From a virus, in IMG/VR virus record IMGVR_UViG_3300028563_000014, positions 23,463 through 87,462 of that record: a stretch of 64,000 nucleotides of DNA; one strand, 5' to 3'. Positions 38,217-54,097 of the stretch are shown in pieces (the first letter of the stretch is position 1; every line of letters begins with the position of its first letter). A program made the translations under genes and the position numbers. The notes below the pieces were generated by a model, which was not told where the DNA came from, searched no databases, and was given only the letters and a program-made list of their open reading frames with translations.

Positions 38217-38662
38217 CCCTCGCCCGCTGCCGGGTCCTCCGCCTCCGGCGGCGGCGCGCGCTCCGGGTCCACCACCACCGGAGGGATCCGCACACGCGCC
38301 CGGCCCTGCTTCCCGGCCCCCTCCGGCGGCTGGCGGATCTCGTAGACCGTCATCCGCGCCCCGGGCTGGACCACCAGGAACATCGCCTGGTGCGGGTAGA
38401 TCAGATCGCCCGCCTGCTGCGCGGCGCGCTCCACCTGCGTCAGCGACATCTTCGCGCGATCCTCCGAGGACAGGACGAAGACGAACGCACGCTGGTCCTG
38501 CCCCAGGTCGAAGGCGTAGGAGCGCAGCGGCGCGGCGATGTCGAGCCGGTCGGGCTCGAACGTCTCCAGCACCATCTGGCGCCGGTCCTTTTTCTTTGGC
38601 TTCGGGCGGTCCCCCGGCGGCGCGGGGACGGGCTTGGTCGCTTGGCTCATGCTGGTCATCAC
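38213..38662 (-). CDS. Hypothetical protein
   Basis: 149 residues, GTG 38660-38662 overlapping the terminase nuclease stop. A basic N-terminus (DRPKPKKKDRRQMVLETFEP), a compact core (LGQDQRAFVFVLSSEDRAKM; HQAMFLVVQPGARMTVYEIR) and a Pro/Glu-rich tail. No family recognised. It is translationally coupled to the terminase nuclease half, so it could be a packaging accessory. Confidence 0.65.
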   Translation of the reverse strand: MMTSMSQATKPVPAPPGDRPKPKKKDRRQMVLETFEPDRLDIAAPLRSYAFDLGQDQRAFVFVLSSEDRAKMSLTQVERAAQQAGDLIYPHQAMFLVVQPGARMTVYEIRQPPEGAGKQGRARVRIPPVVVDPERAPPPEAEDPAAGEG

Positions 38663-39447
38663 CTCATGTTCAGGTCTCGCCGCCCGTCACCGGCGATGCG
38701 CCGGTTCCCCCACTGGTCGATCGCGGACTTGCAGAACCACGCCGCCATCACCCCGTCCGTGGTGCTGTACTTCGGATAGAGCGAGAACTGCCTGAAGAAC
38801 ACGCACCAGGAGCAATCGTGCCCCTCCGGGTGCCCCTCCCATTCGCCCGACGGGAAGGACCACGCCCGGTTCGAGAACTCCACCTCGAGCCCCGGCAGAC
38901 CGAACGCCGGGTCCGCCTTGTTCTTCCCGGTCGTGTGCGCCTCGACCTTCATCCAGAGAGACGGGTAGGCGGTCTTGCCCTTCTGGATCCAGTCGATCAG
39001 CGAGCCCTGGTACGCGTTGTTCTCGACCATCACGTATTGCACGTTGTGCCGGCCGCAGACGTCCGCCAGCATCATCGCCGTCTCCGGGCTCGACCAGGCG
39101 CCGTGCACCACCTCCGCCACGATCCGCCGCCGCGTGGTCGGCTCCACCACTACCACCACGATGAAGTTGCCCGGACGGGTGGCGGAGGACAGGTCGACCC
39201 CGACGTAGGCCGGCCACATGCGCCGGCGCACCTCGGAGACGATCAGGCCCGGCTCGCAGCAAAGCTTGAAGCTCGGGAACTTCAGGTCGCCGGGCTTGAT
39301 CACCTGCATCCGGAACCCCTGCAGCCACATGGCGTGGCCGCCCTCGTCGCCGCCGCGCGCCTTCTGCTCCAGGACGTCGCGCGGGAACTTGCTCTCCCAC
39401 AGCGGCAGGTCCGGGAGCTTCTGAACGCTGACGGCGCGAGGGCTCAC
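38659..39447 (-). CDS. Large terminase, nuclease half (split TerL)
   Basis: 262 residues, GTG start at 39445-39447. The N-terminal LPLWESKFPRDVLEQKARGG is the linker motif that in one-piece terminases follows the ATPase (LWPERF..E.LE..R). Then an RNase H-like nuclease: VGVDLS (D85), VMVENNAYQ (E142) and TTDGVMAAWFC (D231) give the usual acidic triad. No Walker motif is present; a matching ATPase half lies at 53270-54097. In TerL this domain cuts concatemeric DNA. Confidence 0.82.
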   Translation of the reverse strand: MSPRAVSVQKLPDLPLWESKFPRDVLEQKARGGDEGGHAMWLQGFRMQVIKPGDLKFPSFKLCCEPGLIVSEVRRRMWPAYVGVDLSSATRPGNFIVVVVVEPTTRRRIVAEVVHGAWSSPETAMMLADVCGRHNVQYVMVENNAYQGSLIDWIQKGKTAYPSLWMKVEAHTTGKNKADPAFGLPGLEVEFSNRAWSFPSGEWEGHPEGHDCSWCVFFRQFSLYPKYSTTDGVMAAWFCKSAIDQWGNRRIAGDGRRDLNMR

Positions 39448-41098: not shown

Positions 41099-41881
41099 TC
41101 AGCCCGCGGGACGGAGCCGGATCTCGGACCAGCGGATCTTCGCGTCGTACCGCCCGTCAGGCTTCGTCTGCGGCGAGATGCACCAGGGCCACTTCCGCGA
41201 GAACGCGTCGACCATCGCCCGCTCCCGGCCGCTGGTCGCGTACACCGGCGCCAGCCCGCCGTCGTTCGACCCGTTCTTCGGGGCGGCGAACCCGACCTGG
41301 CAGGCGCGGACGGCGTCGTACCCGCTGGCGATAACCTGGACGGTGTAGTCCCGGTCCCCCTTCAGCTCGAGCGACGGGTCGTACGCCACCCCGTGGCTCT
41401 GCCCCAGACTGACCCGGTTCGCCACGACCACGTCACAGTAGCCGTTCCGCTTCGCCGGCTTCTTCGCAGCCCAGGAGAACTGCTGGTACTCCAGGGCGAC
41501 CTGGCCCACGTCCTCCGTGATGAGCGCCTGGGCCTCCAGCAGGGCCTCCCGAGCAGACGTCGGCGCGTTCTTGCCGTCGCGCGCTCGGAAGAACCCGGAG
41601 ACGTCGTCGTCGATCATCCACAGCCACTCCAGGCCCTGCGCGCGCCCCAGCGCCATGACGCTGCTCCGGCTGAACGGGAGTCCCCGCCCGTTCCCCGCCA
41701 GGACCACCAGCTTGTGGTCCGGCTGCGCCAGCCGGTACGCCTTCTCCTCGGCCGGCTCGACGACGACGTTCGCCTTGATTCCCTGCTCCGCCAGGAGCGG
41801 CAGCAGCTTGGAGATCTTGGCGCGCCCCTTGGACGGGACGAAGATCGGGAACAGGTCGGTCGCCGGCGTGGCCTTCTTCAT
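41099..41881 (-). CDS. TET-associated glycosyltransferase (TAGT-like)
   Basis: 260 residues. ATG 41879-41881 overlaps the TET gene's TGA (ATGA), so the two are translationally coupled. FPIFVPSKGRAKISKLLPLL at residues 11-30 and WLWMIDDDVSGFFRARDGKN at 87-104 (D91-D93 as the metal-binding acidic motif) match the TAGT group described beside phage TET genes. C-terminal SFRKWPWC-type region follows. In characterised phage pathways the enzyme puts a sugar on 5-hydroxymethylcytosine made by TET. Sugar and base specificity here are unknown. Confidence 0.82.
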   Translation of the reverse strand: MKKATPATDLFPIFVPSKGRAKISKLLPLLAEQGIKANVVVEPAEEKAYRLAQPDHKLVVLAGNGRGLPFSRSSVMALGRAQGLEWLWMIDDDVSGFFRARDGKNAPTSAREALLEAQALITEDVGQVALEYQQFSWAAKKPAKRNGYCDVVVANRVSLGQSHGVAYDPSLELKGDRDYTVQVIASGYDAVRACQVGFAAPKNGSNDGGLAPVYATSGRERAMVDAFSRKWPWCISPQTKPDGRYDAKIRWSEIRLRPAG

Positions 41882-42699
41882 ACTTTCTTTTCCGCGGCCC
41901 GGTCGACCGCGCGCTTCGTCTTCACCCGCTGGATGCGCAGGAGCTCGTCCGCCATCGGCAGGCAGTTGCACATGGCCTTCATCGCGTAGAAGACCACCGA
42001 GTAGCGGTAGGACATGCTCGACCGCCGCACGATCGGCGTCACCCCGTGGGCCACGTCGGCACCGTCGAACATGATCAGCGCCGGCTTCTGGAACGAGAAC
42101 CCGAGGCCCAGCTCCGGCATGGCCAGGACCCCGCCTTCCGTATCGAAGCAGAGCGCGTACATCGCCGACCACAGGCCCTTGAAGTTGCCGGAGTCGCGGT
42201 GGTACCGGAGCGTATTGTTCCGGTTGGCGATCCCGGACGTGAACGCGGTCCCGGGGATCCGCCACTCCGGCAGCACCGCCGACACCGCCTGCTCCTGGTG
42301 CGCGTAGCGCCCAGGGTTCGTCGCCCGGTAGACCGCGTCCGCCTTCCGAGCGTACTCGCACAGCACCTCGTGCTGCGCCGGGTGCTGCGTGGCCATCGAC
42401 GCCTTGGTGCAGAAGTCGCGGCGGAGCGTCACCCGGGGCAGCGACCCGAACGTCCGGCTCTCCGTCACCAGCCCGTCCGTACGTGCCGTGTTCTGGAACT
42501 CGATCGCGTTGCAGGCGTTGCGCAGGCCCCACACGTCAGCCGGCTTCATCATCCGGAAGGCAACCACCAGCTCGCCCCCCACCAGGACGTCCTCGTCCTC
42601 CTCCACCAGGCGCTCGTAGTCACTCGCCTGCGCCCCCCGAAACTTCAACGCCTTCACGTCGACGGCGCGCCGCTGGACCTCAGTCCTTCTTCTTCTCAT
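41878..42699 (-). CDS. TET/JBP-family 2-oxoglutarate/Fe(II) dioxygenase
   Basis: 273 residues. The double-stranded beta-helix core shows LRYHRDSGNFKGLWSAMYAL with the HxD iron ligands at H167/D169, then FDGADVAHGVTPIV with H218, and YRYSVVFYAM with R232 for 2-oxoglutarate. This layout is that of phage TET/JBP enzymes, which oxidise 5-methylcytosine (TET) or thymine (JBP) in DNA. The ATG at 42697-42699 has GGAGA just upstream and overlaps the ParB-like gene by 20 bases. Direct coupling to TAGT favours a 5mC to 5hmC to glycosyl-hmC pathway. Confidence 0.85.
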   Translation of the reverse strand: MRRRRTEVQRRAVDVKALKFRGAQASDYERLVEEDEDVLVGGELVVAFRMMKPADVWGLRNACNAIEFQNTARTDGLVTESRTFGSLPRVTLRRDFCTKASMATQHPAQHEVLCEYARKADAVYRATNPGRYAHQEQAVSAVLPEWRIPGTAFTSGIANRNNTLRYHRDSGNFKGLWSAMYALCFDTEGGVLAMPELGLGFSFQKPALIMFDGADVAHGVTPIVRRSSMSYRYSVVFYAMKAMCNCLPMADELLRIQRVKTKRAVDRAAEKKV

Positions 42700-43372
42700 A
42701 CGTCTCCAAGAGCAGCACCAGGGCGGCGGAGTGGTTGTCGACCTTGCCCAGCTGCATCACGCGGGCGAGCCGGGCCAAGATCTTCCCCATGGCCGCGTCC
42801 TTGAACGGGAAGACGATCTGCCGGATGACCCCCTCGCCGGCCACCCCGGGCGCCAGCGTCGTGTCCGAGCTGCCGCCCGAGGACGCCGCCCTCAGCCGTG
42901 CGAAGGCGTCCTCGTCCCACCCGACGCGCGCCAGGCCCGCCGGCCCCGAAGCCTCGTGCAGGCGCTGCAGCACTGGCGCCAGATCCGCCTGACTCCAGCC
43001 GCCGATCTCCACCCAGCGGTTATCGGCCAGCAGGTAGCCCTCTGCCTCCTGCTCGTTCTTGAACGCCACCCCGCGCAGGACAGGCGCCATCCACTCGCCT
43101 GTCTTCGGGTCGCGCCGGATGTACTTCGGTGGTCGTTCCGCGTCCTCGGCCACGAGGTGCTCCAGCGCCTCCAGCCGGCCGTGGCCCGCCACCAGGCGCC
43201 CGGTCCGCGCGTTCTCGATCAGCACCTCGGCGAACCCGTGCTCCCGGATCGAAGACGCGATCCCAGGGATGTCGTGCTTCTTCGGGTTGCGCTTCGCGCG
43301 CTTGATCTCGGAGAGCCGGACGTACTCGACCAGCGGCATGTCCTCGCCGGCCACCGCGACGGCGGCGGTCAC
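42680..43372 (-). CDS. ParB-like protein 2 of the TET cassette
   Basis: 230 residues. GTG 43370-43372 overlaps the TGA of the sister gene (GTGA); ATG 43339 is an alternative. EYVRLSEIKRAKRNPKKHDI and LVAGHGRLEALEHL give the ParB/sulfiredoxin-type N-terminal domain (GxGxRxxA box as AGHGRL). A C-terminal part follows with AMGKILARLARVMQLGKVDN. It is a paralogue of the next upstream gene. Likely DNA-binding, possibly with CTPase or nicking activity as in other ParB-like families. Confidence 0.8.
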   Translation of the reverse strand: MTAAVAVAGEDMPLVEYVRLSEIKRAKRNPKKHDIPGIASSIREHGFAEVLIENARTGRLVAGHGRLEALEHLVAEDAERPPKYIRRDPKTGEWMAPVLRGVAFKNEQEAEGYLLADNRWVEIGGWSQADLAPVLQRLHEASGPAGLARVGWDEDAFARLRAASSGGSSDTTLAPGVAGEGVIRQIVFPFKDAAMGKILARLARVMQLGKVDNHSAALVLLLETYEKKKD

Positions 43373-44139
43373 GCCGCACCTCGCAGAGGCTTCAGCTTCC
43401 GCACCTGCTCGAAGCGCGAGATCAGCCGCTCCAGCGCCTCTGAGTTGGAGCCCACCTTCTCTCGGCGCATCACGCGCGACAGGCGCCCCAGGATCGCCTC
43501 CGTCTCCGCCGCCGGGAAGTAGACCACGATCTGCTTCACCGCCCCGGCGTTGTACCCCTCGGCCAGACCAGCGGGCGTCTTCCCGCGCGCCGCCGTGCTG
43601 GCGTCGAAGTCGGACAGGTACCGGCCGATGGCCTTCTCGGACCAGCCGATCGCTGCCAGCTCTCCCTTGTCGGCGCGCTGGGACAGGCGCTCGAGCATCG
43701 GCACCAGCAGTTCCGGATCCCACCCGCCCTTCTCCACCCAGCGGTTGACCGCGATCAGGTACTCCTCCGCGGCCTGCTCACTGGGGAAGGTGATGCCCTT
43801 CAGCACCGGGATCATCCACTCGCCATCGGGGGCGAGCTTCACGAACCGCGGGACCTCCTTCGGGTCCTCCGTGTAGAGCTGGCGCGCCGCCGCCAGGCGC
43901 CCGTGGCCGGCGGCGATGCGGCCGGACTCGGCGTTCTCCACGAGGGGGGCGACGAAACCGTAGCGCCGGATGGAGGCCGCGATCCCCTCCTCGTCGTGCT
44001 CCTTCGGGTTGCGCAGCGCCGTCCGGATCTCCGACAGCCTGACGTGCTCGACCCAGGAGCCGTCGCCCGCCGAGGGACTAGTTAGTACCGGCTCGCCGGC
44101 GGGGCTACTCGGCTTCTTCTTAGTCGCGGTCTTTGCCAT
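43369..44139 (-). CDS. ParB-like protein 1 of the TET cassette
   Basis: 256 residues. EHVRLSEIRTALRNPKEHDE, a YGFVAPLVENAESGRIAAGH segment with AGHGRLAAARQL, and a C-terminal ILGRLSRVMRREKVGSNSEA parallel the sister protein throughout, so the two arose by duplication. First gene of the cassette, 26 bases after the lipoprotein gene ends. ParB-like proteins are known companions of phage TET genes; their role in choosing or marking target DNA is not established. Confidence 0.82.
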   Translation of the reverse strand: MAKTATKKKPSSPAGEPVLTSPSAGDGSWVEHVRLSEIRTALRNPKEHDEEGIAASIRRYGFVAPLVENAESGRIAAGHGRLAAARQLYTEDPKEVPRFVKLAPDGEWMIPVLKGITFPSEQAAEEYLIAVNRWVEKGGWDPELLVPMLERLSQRADKGELAAIGWSEKAIGRYLSDFDASTAARGKTPAGLAEGYNAGAVKQIVVYFPAAETEAILGRLSRVMRREKVGSNSEALERLISRFEQVRKLKPLRGAA

Positions 44140-44165: not shown

Positions 44166-46901
44166 TCACGGCCCGAACGTCCCGAACAGATCCGCCGGGT
44201 GCGGGTTTCCCGCCCCCACCGCCCCGACGTCCGTATTGCGGGCCCCTACGTCGTCCGCCGGGTCGCCGCTGTCGATGACCGGGCTTCCAGCGGTCGGCGT
44301 GTACATCGCGCGATAGGCGGCGAGCACCTGGGCTACCGTCGTGCAACGGGACCAGATCGCTCCGTCGGCGTAGGCGAACGGGACCTGCCGCGCCTGGGCG
44401 AACTGCGGGTCTGTGCTGGCGCCGCCGCCGATGTCGTGGGCACCGAGGCCAGTGTCCGCGTAGGGCGTGAGCAGCGTGGTGTCGGGGTTCCAGAAGCCGT
44501 TGTAGTCGGCGCTGGCCACGGACCCGGGACCGAAGACAGCCACGGGGTTCCAGAAGTCGAAACCGACGAACAGGTTGTTCCTCGCGCTCGTCAACTGCCA
44601 ACCGTTCCCCGGCGCGAACGGCGAGTAGTGCCAGCCCAGCAGCGCGCCCCCGGCGTCGACCGTGTTGTTGTAGAACGACCCGGTCGACAGCGTGATGCCG
44701 CCGCTCGGGTAATACGGCGAAGCGAACCCAACGTTCGCCAGCACATTGTGGTGAACGGATGCGTTCTGCGCGCCGCGGAGGAACGCCTCGCTGAGGCCGT
44801 CGACCATCAGGTTGAAGCGCGCCTCGCCGGCCAAGTCCTGGATCATCCAAGATCCGCCGCGCAGCAGGTTGTGCTCCAGCAGCGACGGCGCCTGCGAGAA
44901 AGTGTTGACAAAATCGACCACGTGCCCCTGCGACCAACCGTAGGGGTAGCGGTGATAGACGACGTTCCCGCTGATGACGTCGCTGCTGCTGTCGTCGAAC
45001 TCCAAGCCGGCTCGGACGCCGATGAGGACGTTTCCTGCCGCGCTCGTCGATCCACCAACGAGCCAGCCGCTGGTGGCGTCGAACCGCACGAAGCTGACGC
45101 CCACGTTGTTGCCGCTGAAGGTCTTGGCTCCGGTCGAGTTGCCCGAGAGCGTGAGGCTCGGGTGGCTGCCGTCGTAGTCGGGCGTGGCGTTGACGGTCGT
45201 CAGGATGTTCGCCGCCAACGTGTTGCCGCTGAAGGTGATCGGAGCGGAACCCTCGGCGCCCAGCGCCAGCGGGCCGGTGCGGTCGAACACCGATCCGCTG
45301 ACCTCCAGCGGGGCGGTGCCGACGACGTCCACGGCGATGCTGGACACGTCCATCGAACCGAGCCCGATCACGTCGACATTGCGCAGGATGAGGTGCCCCG
45401 TCCACCCCGTGGCGCTCCGAATGCGCGAGCCGTTGCTGCTCGTGAGTAGCGCCCGTGCACCTGGCGATCCGATGAACTCGAAGTCGGTCGACCCGGACAA
45501 AACGAGGTCGCTGGCCAGATCCATGTTGGGGCCCGCGTGCGGGCCGACATCAACGACCGTGATCGGCACGTACTGGCTCTCGACGGTGCCGCTGGCCATC
45601 CGGCTGCGCGCGTAGACGTCGTACGTTCCCGCGGCCACGCCCGTCACGTCCACCTGGTAGTAGTCGTAGGGGCTGCTCGTGGTCGCGTGCACGCTGCTGA
45701 CCAGCGTCGACCCAAGGTAGATGTCCACGTCGGGCGAGTAGTTGTTCACGCCATCGCTTCCGTAGTCGGGGGCGTGCGCCCAAATCCTGATGGTCGCCGG
45801 GGCGAAATAGGTCATGCCGGCCACGGGGGTCATCACTCTGACGTAGGGGACGGCCGCGGTGAAGTACGGCTCGACCGGCCACGATGTGCAGGCCACGCCG
45901 CCCGTTCCAGCTGATCCACCGACGCCTCCCGCGCCGCCAGTACCAGCAGATCCGCCAGCGCCAGCCGATCCGCCCGTTCCCATCGAACCGCCGGTCGACC
46001 CGCAGGTGACCACTCCTCCGGTGCCCACGCCAGCGACGCCCGCGGTCCCGCCGCCTACAGACCCACCCGCCGAGCCGCCCGCCGCACCGCCGACTGACCC
46101 ACCGGCTCCTACGACGGAGCCGCCCGCGCTTCCTCCGACGCTCCCAGCCGCGCCACCGGCACCGCCGCCACCGGCGACGAGCGGCGTGCTCGCGTCCGTC
46201 TGCAGCTCGGCCAACGCTAACGCCCGCTTGTAGATGCGCAGGTCGTCGACCCGCCCGTGGAAGAAATCGCCGAACACGGCGTTGCCTCCGATCGTCAGCG
46301 CGTCGTTGGTCTGGACGATCGAGATCGCCGATGCCTTGCTGCCCACCTGCGATACCGTGCCCGCGGTCGCCTCGAAGAGCCTGAGGGTGGCGTGGTCGTA
46401 GGTCATCGCGACGTAGGTCCACTGGCCCGCGGCGGGCATGGTGCCGGCCGCCAGGTCGACGTCGGAGGCGGACGCGATCCGGGCGAGCGGCTGGGTCGAG
46501 TTCCACCCGTAGAGGCCATAGGCCAGCGCGCTCGGGCGCCCCTTGGAGACCACGTCCTGCCACGATCCGCCGGTGCCGTCCGGGGCGATCCAAGCTGAGA
46601 TCGTCAGGCCCGTCGAGAGGTCCAGCGGGCTGCCGGTCCCGGGATCTGCCACGGTGATCAGGCCGGCGCCGTCGAAGGCCAGCGCGCCGCCGTACTTGCC
46701 AGTGGCCCACGTCTGGTGCGCGGTGACGACGCCGTCGAGGTGGTTCGTGGTCACATCGTGGAGGGCCGAGCCGGCCCCCTCGTCGAAGTTGTAGCCGGCG
46801 ACCAACGCGGCATCGAGCGCGCTACGAGCAGACTGAAGAGTGTCGCCCGACCTGCACGACGCGATCACGAGGCACCCCAAGAGGACGACGATACGTTTCA
46901 T
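44166..46901 (-). CDS. Large lipoprotein: LamG domain, Gly-rich linker and beta-helix
   Basis: 911 residues. ATG 46899-46901 overlaps the previous TGA (ATGA). MKRIVVLLGCLVIASCRSG is a signal peptide with a lipobox-like LVIASC. Residues about 30-205 are a LamG domain (VAGYNFDEGAGSALHDVTTN); residues 220-310 are a Gly/Ser/Thr/Ala linker (GGSAGAGGSAGTGGAGGVGG); then an Ig-like part and a parallel beta-helix with N-rich coils (LEHNLLRGG, VHHNVLANVG). The linker style is frequent in Myxococcota secreted proteins, so it may come from the host. Cell-surface display during infection, for example to block other phages, is one idea. Confidence 0.82.
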   Translation of the reverse strand: MKRIVVLLGCLVIASCRSGDTLQSARSALDAALVAGYNFDEGAGSALHDVTTNHLDGVVTAHQTWATGKYGGALAFDGAGLITVADPGTGSPLDLSTGLTISAWIAPDGTGGSWQDVVSKGRPSALAYGLYGWNSTQPLARIASASDVDLAAGTMPAAGQWTYVAMTYDHATLRLFEATAGTVSQVGSKASAISIVQTNDALTIGGNAVFGDFFHGRVDDLRIYKRALALAELQTDASTPLVAGGGGAGGAAGSVGGSAGGSVVGAGGSVGGAAGGSAGGSVGGGTAGVAGVGTGGVVTCGSTGGSMGTGGSAGAGGSAGTGGAGGVGGSAGTGGVACTSWPVEPYFTAAVPYVRVMTPVAGMTYFAPATIRIWAHAPDYGSDGVNNYSPDVDIYLGSTLVSSVHATTSSPYDYYQVDVTGVAAGTYDVYARSRMASGTVESQYVPITVVDVGPHAGPNMDLASDLVLSGSTDFEFIGSPGARALLTSSNGSRIRSATGWTGHLILRNVDVIGLGSMDVSSIAVDVVGTAPLEVSGSVFDRTGPLALGAEGSAPITFSGNTLAANILTTVNATPDYDGSHPSLTLSGNSTGAKTFSGNNVGVSFVRFDATSGWLVGGSTSAAGNVLIGVRAGLEFDDSSSDVISGNVVYHRYPYGWSQGHVVDFVNTFSQAPSLLEHNLLRGGSWMIQDLAGEARFNLMVDGLSEAFLRGAQNASVHHNVLANVGFASPYYPSGGITLSTGSFYNNTVDAGGALLGWHYSPFAPGNGWQLTSARNNLFVGFDFWNPVAVFGPGSVASADYNGFWNPDTTLLTPYADTGLGAHDIGGGASTDPQFAQARQVPFAYADGAIWSRCTTVAQVLAAYRAMYTPTAGSPVIDSGDPADDVGARNTDVGAVGAGNPHPADLFGTFGP

Positions 46902-47437
46902 TGACGGATTCCCTTCTGGTTCGTTGTGTACTGAGCGGGCAGGATCTTCTTCGTTGCTGGCGGCGGCGTCCACTGCGGCAGCGGGATGGCCATCTCCGGG
47001 AACGTCGCGCGGTAGGTCGCCAGGTCGCAAGCCCCGACGAACGTCCGTGGCTTCCACCCTCGGTCGGCCAGGCGCTTGGTGACACCCAGCTTCCGCGAGG
47101 CGATCGTCGCGATGCCCCGGTCGACCTGCACCACCCAGGCGCACGGGTCGTCCAGGATGACTGGGCGCTTCACCTCGACGTCGCCCGCCACCATGTCGAA
47201 CACCGCTTCGCACTCCAGCGGCCGGGTCGACGACGCGCAGCCGTCGCGGTTCCCCGACGCGATTGCCATGGCTTCGGCCAGCTCATCGTGCGCGTCGATG
47301 CAGGCGCGGTCGTTCGCCGCGCACTCCGGCACGTCAGGGTCCGGGAGCGCCGGCCCGTAGACCGGGCGCGGGTCAGGGCGGAAGTAGGGCAGCGGGTCGA
47401 CGGCGAGGACCCCCAACAGGACAGCGAGCAGCGTCAT
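46898..47437 (-). CDS. Exported protein of unknown function
   Basis: 179 residues, ATG overlapping the previous stop (ATGA). The N-terminal MTLLAVLLGVLAVDPLPYFR looks like a short signal peptide. Several cysteines (PECAANDRACID, GCASSTRPLECE, DDPCAW, GACDLA) may form disulphides, consistent with export. Coupled to the lipoprotein gene below it, so the two may act together at the cell surface. No family recognised. Confidence 0.65.
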   Translation of the reverse strand: MTLLAVLLGVLAVDPLPYFRPDPRPVYGPALPDPDVPECAANDRACIDAHDELAEAMAIASGNRDGCASSTRPLECEAVFDMVAGDVEVKRPVILDDPCAWVVQVDRGIATIASRKLGVTKRLADRGWKPRTFVGACDLATYRATFPEMAIPLPQWTPPPATKKILPAQYTTNQKGIRQ

Positions 47438-48789: not shown

Positions 48790-49070
48790 TGATCCGCCCT
48801 CCCCTCTTCCGCCGCGCGGCACGTCCTGCAGTGCAGGCGGCAATACTCCTTATGCCCGGGCGCGGTCCCTGCGGACAACGGGCACCCGGCCTCGGAGCAC
48901 GCTCCGCCCTCCCGGCCTTCTAATATCCTGGATCCGCACGTGCACGGCGGTAACGACGTGATGTCTCGCCGGCCGCACCTGCGGCAGAGCCAGTAATCGT
49001 GGTCTGCGTTGATTCCGTCGCCCGTCATACGACGCCGGAAGAAGCGCGCCAGGAAGCCTGGGAGCTTCAC
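48786..49070 (-). CDS. KLPxFLARxFR paralogue 2, Cys-rich
   Basis: 94 residues from GTG 49068-49070 overlapping the methyltransferase stop (GTGA). Begins MKLPGFLARFFRRR as the sister gene does, then a zinc-ribbon-like series CRRCG, PCTCGS, CSEAGC, CRLHCRTC. The shared N-terminus with different C-terminal parts suggests a targeting helix placed on different zinc modules. Confidence 0.65.
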   Translation of the reverse strand: MKLPGFLARFFRRRMTGDGINADHDYWLCRRCGRRDITSLPPCTCGSRILEGREGGACSEAGCPLSAGTAPGHKEYCRLHCRTCRAAEEGRADQ

Positions 49071-49549
49071 TCGGGCCTCTTCCAGTCCAGCCAGCGCCAG
49101 GGCTCGAGGCCCGAATACCCCTCGGGCGTGAACAGGGACAGCATCAGGTCCTTCGGGTACGGGTCCTTCTCGCCCGCGAACGTCAGGCGCGGCGCGATCC
49201 CGAAGACGTACGCCTTGCCGTGCACGTGCTCCCGGTACCAGGCGGAGCCGATGCTGGCCGGGGTGAGCATCGCGATCTTGGCGCCGCGCGCGCTCTCCTC
49301 CGCGCATTTCTTCGCCCAAGGGGCGATGTCGGCGAACGGAGGGTTCAGCCAGAGCAGCCTCCCGCCTCTCCAGTGCAGCGCCCACGGATACGAGAGCGCA
49401 TCGTCCTTCTCGGTGTAATAGCTGGCGTGGACGGCGTTCTCGTGGCTCGCGGCGAGGTCATGGACGATCTCTCCGAACCGCCGTTGCACCGCGTCCAGGA
49501 ACGGCCTCGGCGTCCCGTAGTCTTGTCGACTTTGCCCCCGCTTGCTCAT
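49067..49549 (-). CDS. Dam-like DNA N6-adenine methyltransferase
   Basis: 160 residues. ATG 49547-49549 overlaps the previous TGA (ATGA). DYGTPRPFLDAVQRRF at the start is the phage Dam-like opening, LLWLNPPFADIAPWAKKCAE carries the NPPF catalytic motif, and ARGAKIAMLTPASIGSAWYR follows. Small phage methyltransferases of this family protect phage DNA or alter its signals. The motif is for exocyclic amino methylation, so it is not the cytosine-C5 enzyme the TET pathway would need. Confidence 0.8.
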   Translation of the reverse strand: MSKRGQSRQDYGTPRPFLDAVQRRFGEIVHDLAASHENAVHASYYTEKDDALSYPWALHWRGGRLLWLNPPFADIAPWAKKCAEESARGAKIAMLTPASIGSAWYREHVHGKAYVFGIAPRLTFAGEKDPYPKDLMLSLFTPEGYSGLEPWRWLDWKRPE

Positions 49550-53267: not shown

Positions 53268-53279
53268 GATCATTGTCCG
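53268..53279 (-). repeat. CGGACAATGATC motif, copy B
   Basis: The TGA that ends the terminase ATPase gene lies inside this copy (CGGACAATGA), so the last residues of that protein (DGQ) are encoded by the motif. Confidence 0.5.
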
Positions 53280-54097
53280 TCCACCAGCATGTCAGCCATC
53301 ATCGCCGCGACCTCGCCCCGGTAGTCGCTGCCGGCGTTGTAGACCTCCTGCTCGTAGCCGGTCAGGTCCTCCTTCACTCGCTGCTCCAGCCAGACGAAGT
53401 CCCCCCGGGAGCGCATGGTGTAGCTGGCGTCGTCCAGGTCCCACGGGGTGGCGATCCAGAGCACCTTCCCCCGGGGCTCGAGACGGCTCATCCAGAGCGT
53501 CTCTACCTGGTGCTTGACCCGCTTCCGTTTCTCGTAGGTGGTGCAGTTCTCGATGTCGACGACGTCGTCGAACAAGATCGTCGTCGCGCGGCCGCCCGTC
53601 CCCTTCGAGTAGACGCCACGGGACTCCAGCGTCGGGTCGATGCCGTGGCCAACGCGCTCGGCGTAGAGCATGTGGTCGTTCCACTTCTCGCCGCGCTCGA
53701 CCCCCGGGAAGACAGCGCCGTAGGCCGGGCTCTCGATGATCTTCCGGCAGGACTGGAGCCGCTGGCTGGCGTGGCCGTCGCCGCTGCAGACGATCTTCAC
53801 CCGTTCCTGCGGATCCCGACCGACCAAGTACGTGATCAGTGGCACGCCGAAGCCCGACGATTTTCCAGACCCGAAATGGCTGAAGATCCCGGCGTGGAGC
53901 CCGCGCGACCAGGCGTAGCTCACGTGGGCGATCCAGGCCAGGTGCAGGTGGCTGTACTCGATCGGCTTGCCCTCGGCCGCGTCCCGGACGACCGTCGGCC
54001 CGAACCGGTGGAACCGCTCGCGCGCCGCCTTCAGCACGAGCTGCCGCCGGGCCTCGATCATCCGACCCCAGTCGGGGCCGACCGCCGGGGCGCTCAC
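53270..54097 (-). CDS. Large terminase, ATPase half (split TerL)
   Basis: 275 residues, GTG 54095-54097. HFGSGKSS at residues 74-81 is a Walker A variant, TTILFDDVVDIENCTTYEKR at 172-191 carries Walker B, and VLWIATPWDLDDASYTMRSR at 212-231 the coupling motif (ATPxxxxD). The protein stops shortly after this motif, with none of the nuclease acidic residues. The remaining nuclease domain is a separate gene at 38659-39447. In TerL the ATPase pumps DNA into the head. Confidence 0.85.
   Translation of the reverse strand: MSAPAVGPDWGRMIEARRQLVLKAARERFHRFGPTVVRDAAEGKPIEYSHLHLAWIAHVSYAWSRGLHAGIFSHFGSGKSSGFGVPLITYLVGRDPQERVKIVCSGDGHASQRLQSCRKIIESPAYGAVFPGVERGEKWNDHMLYAERVGHGIDPTLESRGVYSKGTGGRATTILFDDVVDIENCTTYEKRKRVKHQVETLWMSRLEPRGKVLWIATPWDLDDASYTMRSRGDFVWLEQRVKEDLTGYEQEVYNAGSDYRGEVAAMMADMLVDGQ

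Follow-up and report, generated by a model that had tools for sequence, protein, structure and literature searches.

ParB-like proteins as conserved partners of a phage TET/JBP dioxygenase in a candidate DNA hypermodification operon

The IMG/VR virus record IMGVR_UViG_3300028563_000014 (87,462 bp) contains an operon encoding two ParB-like proteins (ParB1 and ParB2), a TET/JBP 2-oxoglutarate/Fe(II) dioxygenase (TET) and a TAGT-family glycosyltransferase (GT). Across related phages, ParB is a conserved, near-obligate partner of TET and stays with it through exchanges of the decorating enzyme. We propose that the four genes constitute a post-replicative DNA hypermodification operon, in which TET would hydroxylate thymine, GT would glycosylate the product and the ParB-like proteins would act with the dioxygenase; taken as a whole, this scheme has about an even chance of being right. 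The observation of the cassette itself is far above chance.

Gene organisation of the operon

The window analysed here is a 64,000-nucleotide stretch comprising bases 23463-87462 of the record, with a GC content of 69%. Nearly all called genes lie on its minus strand, including those encoding the portal, terminase, helicase and SbcCD-like proteins. The four genes at 41099-44139(-), predicted earlier to be coupled, are all present as an overlapping operon in the order 5'-ParB1, ParB2, TET, GT-3', with successive overlaps of 4, 20 and 4 nt, and the residues previously named in them are intact. ParB1 (43369..44139, minus strand) encodes 256 aa. ParB2 (42680..43372, minus strand) encodes 230 aa when read from the GTG start codon at 43372, which overlaps ParB1 by 4 nt; an ATG at 43339 is an alternative start. 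The start of TET (41878..42699, minus strand; 273 aa) overlaps the end of ParB2 by 20 nt, and TET in turn shares the 4-nt overlap ATGA with GT (41099..41881, minus strand; 260 aa). A 477-aa version of GT (ORF 41099-42532) was rejected as an upstream extension of the same frame, the gene starting at ATG 41881.

The dioxygenase, the glycosyltransferase and the ParB-like proteins

TET matches the Pfam family Tet_JBP (PF12851) with 51.7 bits against a curated cut-off of 34.9 (E 7.5e-14). The proposed iron ligands H167, D169 and H218 and the 2-oxoglutarate-binding R232 are at the positions claimed for them and are invariant in 30 relatives. The structural comparison suggested alongside the original prediction also favours a TET enzyme: the best solved folds found by Foldseek for the predicted model (pLDDT 95.1, pTM 0.91) are CcTet, NgTET1, TET2 and CMD1 (E ~1e-11), supporting a double-stranded beta-helix fold of the TET/NgTET1 type. 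Single-sequence phmmer searches of the PDB with TET or with GT yielded nothing meaningful. PHROG 6059 would pass on to TET the name queuine tRNA-ribosyltransferase, an identity that was rejected. Many RefSeq phages label TET/JBP proteins in this way (PHROG 6059, mycobacteriophage gp2), in what looks like a propagated misnomer.

GT scores 58.5 bits (E 1.1e-15) against PF20691, the TET-associated glycosyltransferase family 'TAGT', well over its cut-off of 27.5, and also matches PHROG 842 (9.4e-20). Both motifs on which its identification as a TAGT-type enzyme was based are in place: residue 14 is the first of FVPSKGR, and residue 90 the first of IDDD. R20, D92 and G208 are invariant in 40 TAGT relatives, and D93 is nearly so.

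ParB1 and ParB2 each match several PHROG ParB families (1e-21 and 1.5e-19, respectively), while neither has a match in Pfam or NCBIfam. ParB1 consists of a ParB N-domain (residues ~29-135), a helical middle and a C-terminal domain (~200-247) whose 'KQIV' motif is common to other TET-linked ParBs. A profile of the family matches Spo0J/ParB/Noc proteins at 1e-16 to 1e-10, the Spo0J match (1e-16) covering ~120 residues and ending near Spo0J residue 147. The best folds for the ParB1 model (pLDDT 86) are Noc, ParB and KorB, and its helical middle overlays poorly (TM 0.3-0.4). Neither the profile match nor the predicted model revealed a canonical parS-binding domain, which is a central helix-turn-helix. 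In the position of GERR, the phosphate-binding motif of the canonical ParB CTPase clamp, the ParBs of the window have GHGR, keeping one of the two arginines, and a group of actinophage ParBs has GNHT. It is plausible, given the retained GHGR, that the ParBs of the window bind nucleotide.

Conserved coupling of ParB and TET

Pattern scans with TET, GT or ParB1 of the window singly found no relatives in IMG/VR; single-protein scans being insufficient, relatives were found by an alignment-based search, which gave 411 and left a working set of 80 loci. Some records may be fragmentary. Near-copies inflate the raw counts, and a non-redundant set of 20 clade-1 loci with at least 2.5 kb of flank on both sides was therefore defined. 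All 20 have a ParB no more than 4 kb from TET; at least two ParBs are present in seven, TAGT in 15, and a kinase or ADDT gene in three. TAGT is located between ParB and TET in some of the 20. When ParB matches were counted by their distance from TET, 84 fell within 2 kb and seven at 2-4 kb, with none at 4-8 kb over ~250 kb searched. Upstream of TET and on the same strand is where 86 of 90 ParB matches lie, and placement upstream was also seen in three loci from bacterial genomes. Nine ParB matches from different loci were scanned against PHROGs, and all nine were ParB-like. The isolated phages whose TETs are nearest also have ParB ahead of TET: Tonitrus, LittleMunchkin, Serendipitous, Klevey, MementoMori and Kharcho, the last having two ParBs. 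The original prediction described the duplicated ParB pair as having no assigned role. Biochemically this still holds, but the adjacency of ParB and TET proves to be conserved and is listed in the Tonitrus system (PMC11955845), and the duplication is recurrent.

We infer from this sequence context that ParB loads or aims the dioxygenase. In the proposed mechanism, ParB1 and ParB2 would load on DNA via their N-domain, which is of the ParB nucleotide-binding type, and bring TET to its targets, acting with the dioxygenase and not with the decorating enzyme. TET, using 2-oxoglutarate and Fe(II), would then act on thymines of the phage DNA itself, hydroxylating their 5-methyl group to give 5-hydroxymethyluracil (5hmU). 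Finally, GT would transfer a sugar onto the hydroxymethyl group, and the resulting base-J-like glycosyl-5hmU would block host nucleases, protection being the presumed purpose.

Alternatively, TET and TAGT may modify DNA while the ParBs are merely co-transcribed with them, serving in partition, in control of operon transcription or as a nuclease acting on unmodified DNA. ParB-fold proteins do several such jobs, as the closest solved folds illustrate, KorB being a transcriptional repressor. We nevertheless consider this reading possible but somewhat unlikely, as ParB remains coupled to TET in widely diverged phages and through changes of decorating enzyme. Further, a role in modification is suggested by a match of the ParB domain to PHROG 498, a family of DNA methyltransferases, in its N-terminal part.

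Thymine or cytosine as the substrate

The alternative partners of ParB-TET are genes for ADDT (PF18724, an amino acid:DNA transferase) and a P-loop kinase (PF18751), both of which were assigned to thymidine hypermodification in the study of Tonitrus (PMC11955845). Isolates that have a close TET carry, after ParB-TET, either ADDT and the P-loop kinase or TAGT and a PIG-L deacetylase. Searches of whole TET records found TAGT in 22 of 50, ADDT in 17 of 50, both in none and neither in 11. This mutual exclusion gives a Fisher p of 2.4e-6 with kinship ignored and is not significant after phylogenetic pairing, for which there were too few pairs (five; median p 0.5). The TAGT and ADDT labels switch at least six times on the TET tree. 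The kinase group accompanying TET is heterogeneous, and in Serendipitous one of the genes in the vicinity of TAGT gives a score with the kinase profile. The phage of the window has no match to PF18724 or to the kinase profile, and has TAGT instead.

The simplest reading is that a constant front end of ParB and TET yields one intermediate, which is then either glycosylated or sent via ADDT. Since the ADDT route is a thymidine route and shares this front end with TAGT, the intermediate here is probably 5hmU. No thymidylate-synthase-type hydroxymethylase was found in the record, which would leave hydroxylation to TET, on the polymer. A route from thymine through 5hmU to glycosyl-5hmU, resembling base J, therefore appears preferable to one through 5-methylcytosine (5mC). 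The original prediction of a TET-TAGT hypermodification cassette thus stands as far as modification of DNA bases is concerned, which is well supported, while its cytosine-first reading has become less likely with the failure to find a C5-cytosine methyltransferase (C5-MT) and the occurrence of ADDT as an alternative partner.

A cytosine pathway would need a C5-MT from the host, or one missed in the phage, to make 5mC, which TET would convert to 5-hydroxymethylcytosine for TAGT to glycosylate, with ParB as an accessory. Phage systems of this kind have been described, in which a phage C5-MT, TET and glycosyltransferases lead to glycosylated cytosine (PMC12730594, citing Burke 2021). Both the PDB profile matches and the fold neighbours of TET are 5mC enzymes, with no JBP dioxygenase domain among the matches, and 5mC made by the host could feed TET. 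However, a search of the 87-kb record, which is possibly incomplete, gave no PF00145 match at E<=10, and near relatives have almost no C5-MT. Of 50 TET records, nearly all belonging to the ParB-rich clade, three have one, as does one of another 50 from a second TET clade, which had been sought via divergent TETs as a C5-MT-linked contrast and could not serve as such; among these four matches in ~100 TET records, the single full-length one is in a 327-kb contig. A search with this full-length phage C5-MT found no relative beside any retrieved TET. Together with the pairing of ADDT-type thymidine enzymes with the same ParB-TET module, these results make modification of cytosine unlikely, and we favour thymine as the substrate.

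Recurrent duplication of ParB

Identity between ParB1 and ParB2 is 46%, against 38-40% between either of them and the only ParB of locus L013. In a bootstrapped tree ParB1 and ParB2 are sisters (support 100/99). Sister pairs also occur in MementoMori (100/97), L014 (100/99), L017 (95/87) and Kharcho (95/81), and the three ParBs of L025 group together (100/98). In MementoMori the paired genes, gp1 and gp97, are at opposite ends of its record (L011 and L010). ParB has therefore been duplicated beside TET at least six times independently, or its copies have been homogenised by gene conversion. The latter explanation, under which a single ancient duplication would have been homogenised separately in every phage, is quite unlikely. 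Old ParB pairs do exist, as proven by the L029/L039/L067 group, in which one older duplication left two copies as separate clades. Most relatives, however, have a single ParB copy, and single copies are the nearest neighbours of several pairs, such as L013 and L054 beside the pair of the window; moreover, the copies of the window are only 46% identical and so have undergone no recent conversion.

Parallel duplication suggests that ParB1 and ParB2 may form a heterodimer, and we infer that ParB pairs in general may work in this way. The fullest form of the proposal, a phage base-J-like pathway in which a ParB-family heterodimer arising from repeated parallel duplication would serve as the DNA-loading subunit of the dioxygenase, is tentative, and we hold it to be rather improbable as a complete description; if correct, it would put the ParB fold to a new use. 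Duplication can also extend to the whole cassette: L025 (4593-8837) and L026, in a 327-kb contig, have the arrangement ParB-TET-ParB-ParB-TET, with ADDT and kinase genes upstream.

The sugar proposed to be transferred

A PIG-L-type GlcNAc deacetylase is encoded directly after TAGT in Serendipitous (L006, 2504-3091) and Klevey (L008, 6678-7268). This hints that in these two phages N-acetylglucosamine may be the donated sugar, with subsequent deacetylation to glucosamine on DNA. No PIG-L deacetylase was found in the phage of the window. That GT instead targets a virion or host glycan is highly improbable, for although glycosyltransferases are common phage genes, this one belongs, with a score over the cut-off, to a curated TET-associated family whose members sit in the TET operons of many unrelated phages.

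Comparison with known systems

The couplings of TET to TAGT and of ParB to TET are already known in outline, from the name of the Pfam family and from the Tonitrus study (PMC11955845), respectively. Rhodococcus phage Tonitrus (L004) carries a cassette of ParB, TET/JBP, aGPT-Pplase2/ADDT and P-loop kinase genes for thymidine hypermodification, and resembles the window in having ParB followed by TET/JBP near the terminase genes. The window differs in having TAGT without ADDT and a duplicated ParB. Mycobacterium phage Serendipitous and Arthrobacter phage Klevey share the order ParB-TET-TAGT with the window, but have the additional PIG-L deacetylase and one ParB next to TET. The cytosine hypermodification system with C5-MT, TET and glycosyltransferase, as presented in PMC12730594 (citing Burke 2021), likewise combines TET and a glycosyltransferase in one phage pathway; here, by contrast, no C5-MT was found in the record, two ParB-like proteins are present and the substrate is probably thymine. 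A chemical parallel is the kinetoplastid base J pathway (JBP1/2 and JGT), which works like the scheme proposed here, with hydroxylation of thymine by a TET/JBP enzyme followed by glycosylation; the organisms are unrelated and the product in our phage is a predicted one. As of 2019, no report of glucosylated 5hmdU from phages existed (PMC6449724).

The near-obligate linkage of ParB and TET in a wide range of phages, the interchange between TAGT and ADDT behind this pair and the parallel duplications of ParB appear to be new, though part of this may have been noted earlier; the resulting expectation of a base-J-like phage modification also appears new, with the same caveat. If thymine is what the TETs of this large clade hydroxylate, modified thymine would instead be expected in many phages now recorded as modifying cytosine or as carrying a 'queuine tRNA-ribosyltransferase'. 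The near-obligate, repeatedly duplicated ParB partner offers a direct handle on how TET-family enzymes locate DNA sites, and exchangeable decorating enzymes, adding sugar or amino acid behind a constant front end, provide a modular way, open to testing, of arriving at new chemistries of DNA bases.

Neighbouring genes and annotation of related genes

Two annotations in related phages deserve comment. The PF18751 kinase accompanying TET (L004 3234-3764, L011 1592-2176 and L006 2923-3651) matches a PHROG named 'terminase small subunit', and similar genes bear that annotation in MementoMori and Serendipitous, reflecting either a misnomer or a fusion. Cyanophage MED4-184 has next to its divergent TET a gene (L092, 4356-5006) that carries the annotation 'DNA methylase' and gives a ParB score.

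The large terminase of the window is apparently split into an ATPase part (53270-54097(-); PHROG 38 positions 266-469) and a nuclease part (38659-39447(-); positions 486-698), with no intein or direct repeat at the split ends. Between the two parts, which are 13.8 kb apart, lie the operon described above, a lipoprotein-like gene and one for a Dam methylase. Adjacent to the cassette, 44166-46904(-) encodes a Laminin-G/beta-helix protein with Gly-rich repeats (PF13385, 3.7e-19), and the frame upstream of it resembles a lipoprotein signal (VIASC). By resemblance only, this may point to a Myxococcota-type host or to a gene derived from the host. The gene at 49067-49549(-) encodes a Dam-type N6-adenine methyltransferase (PF05869, 3e-20), a second and separate DNA modification.
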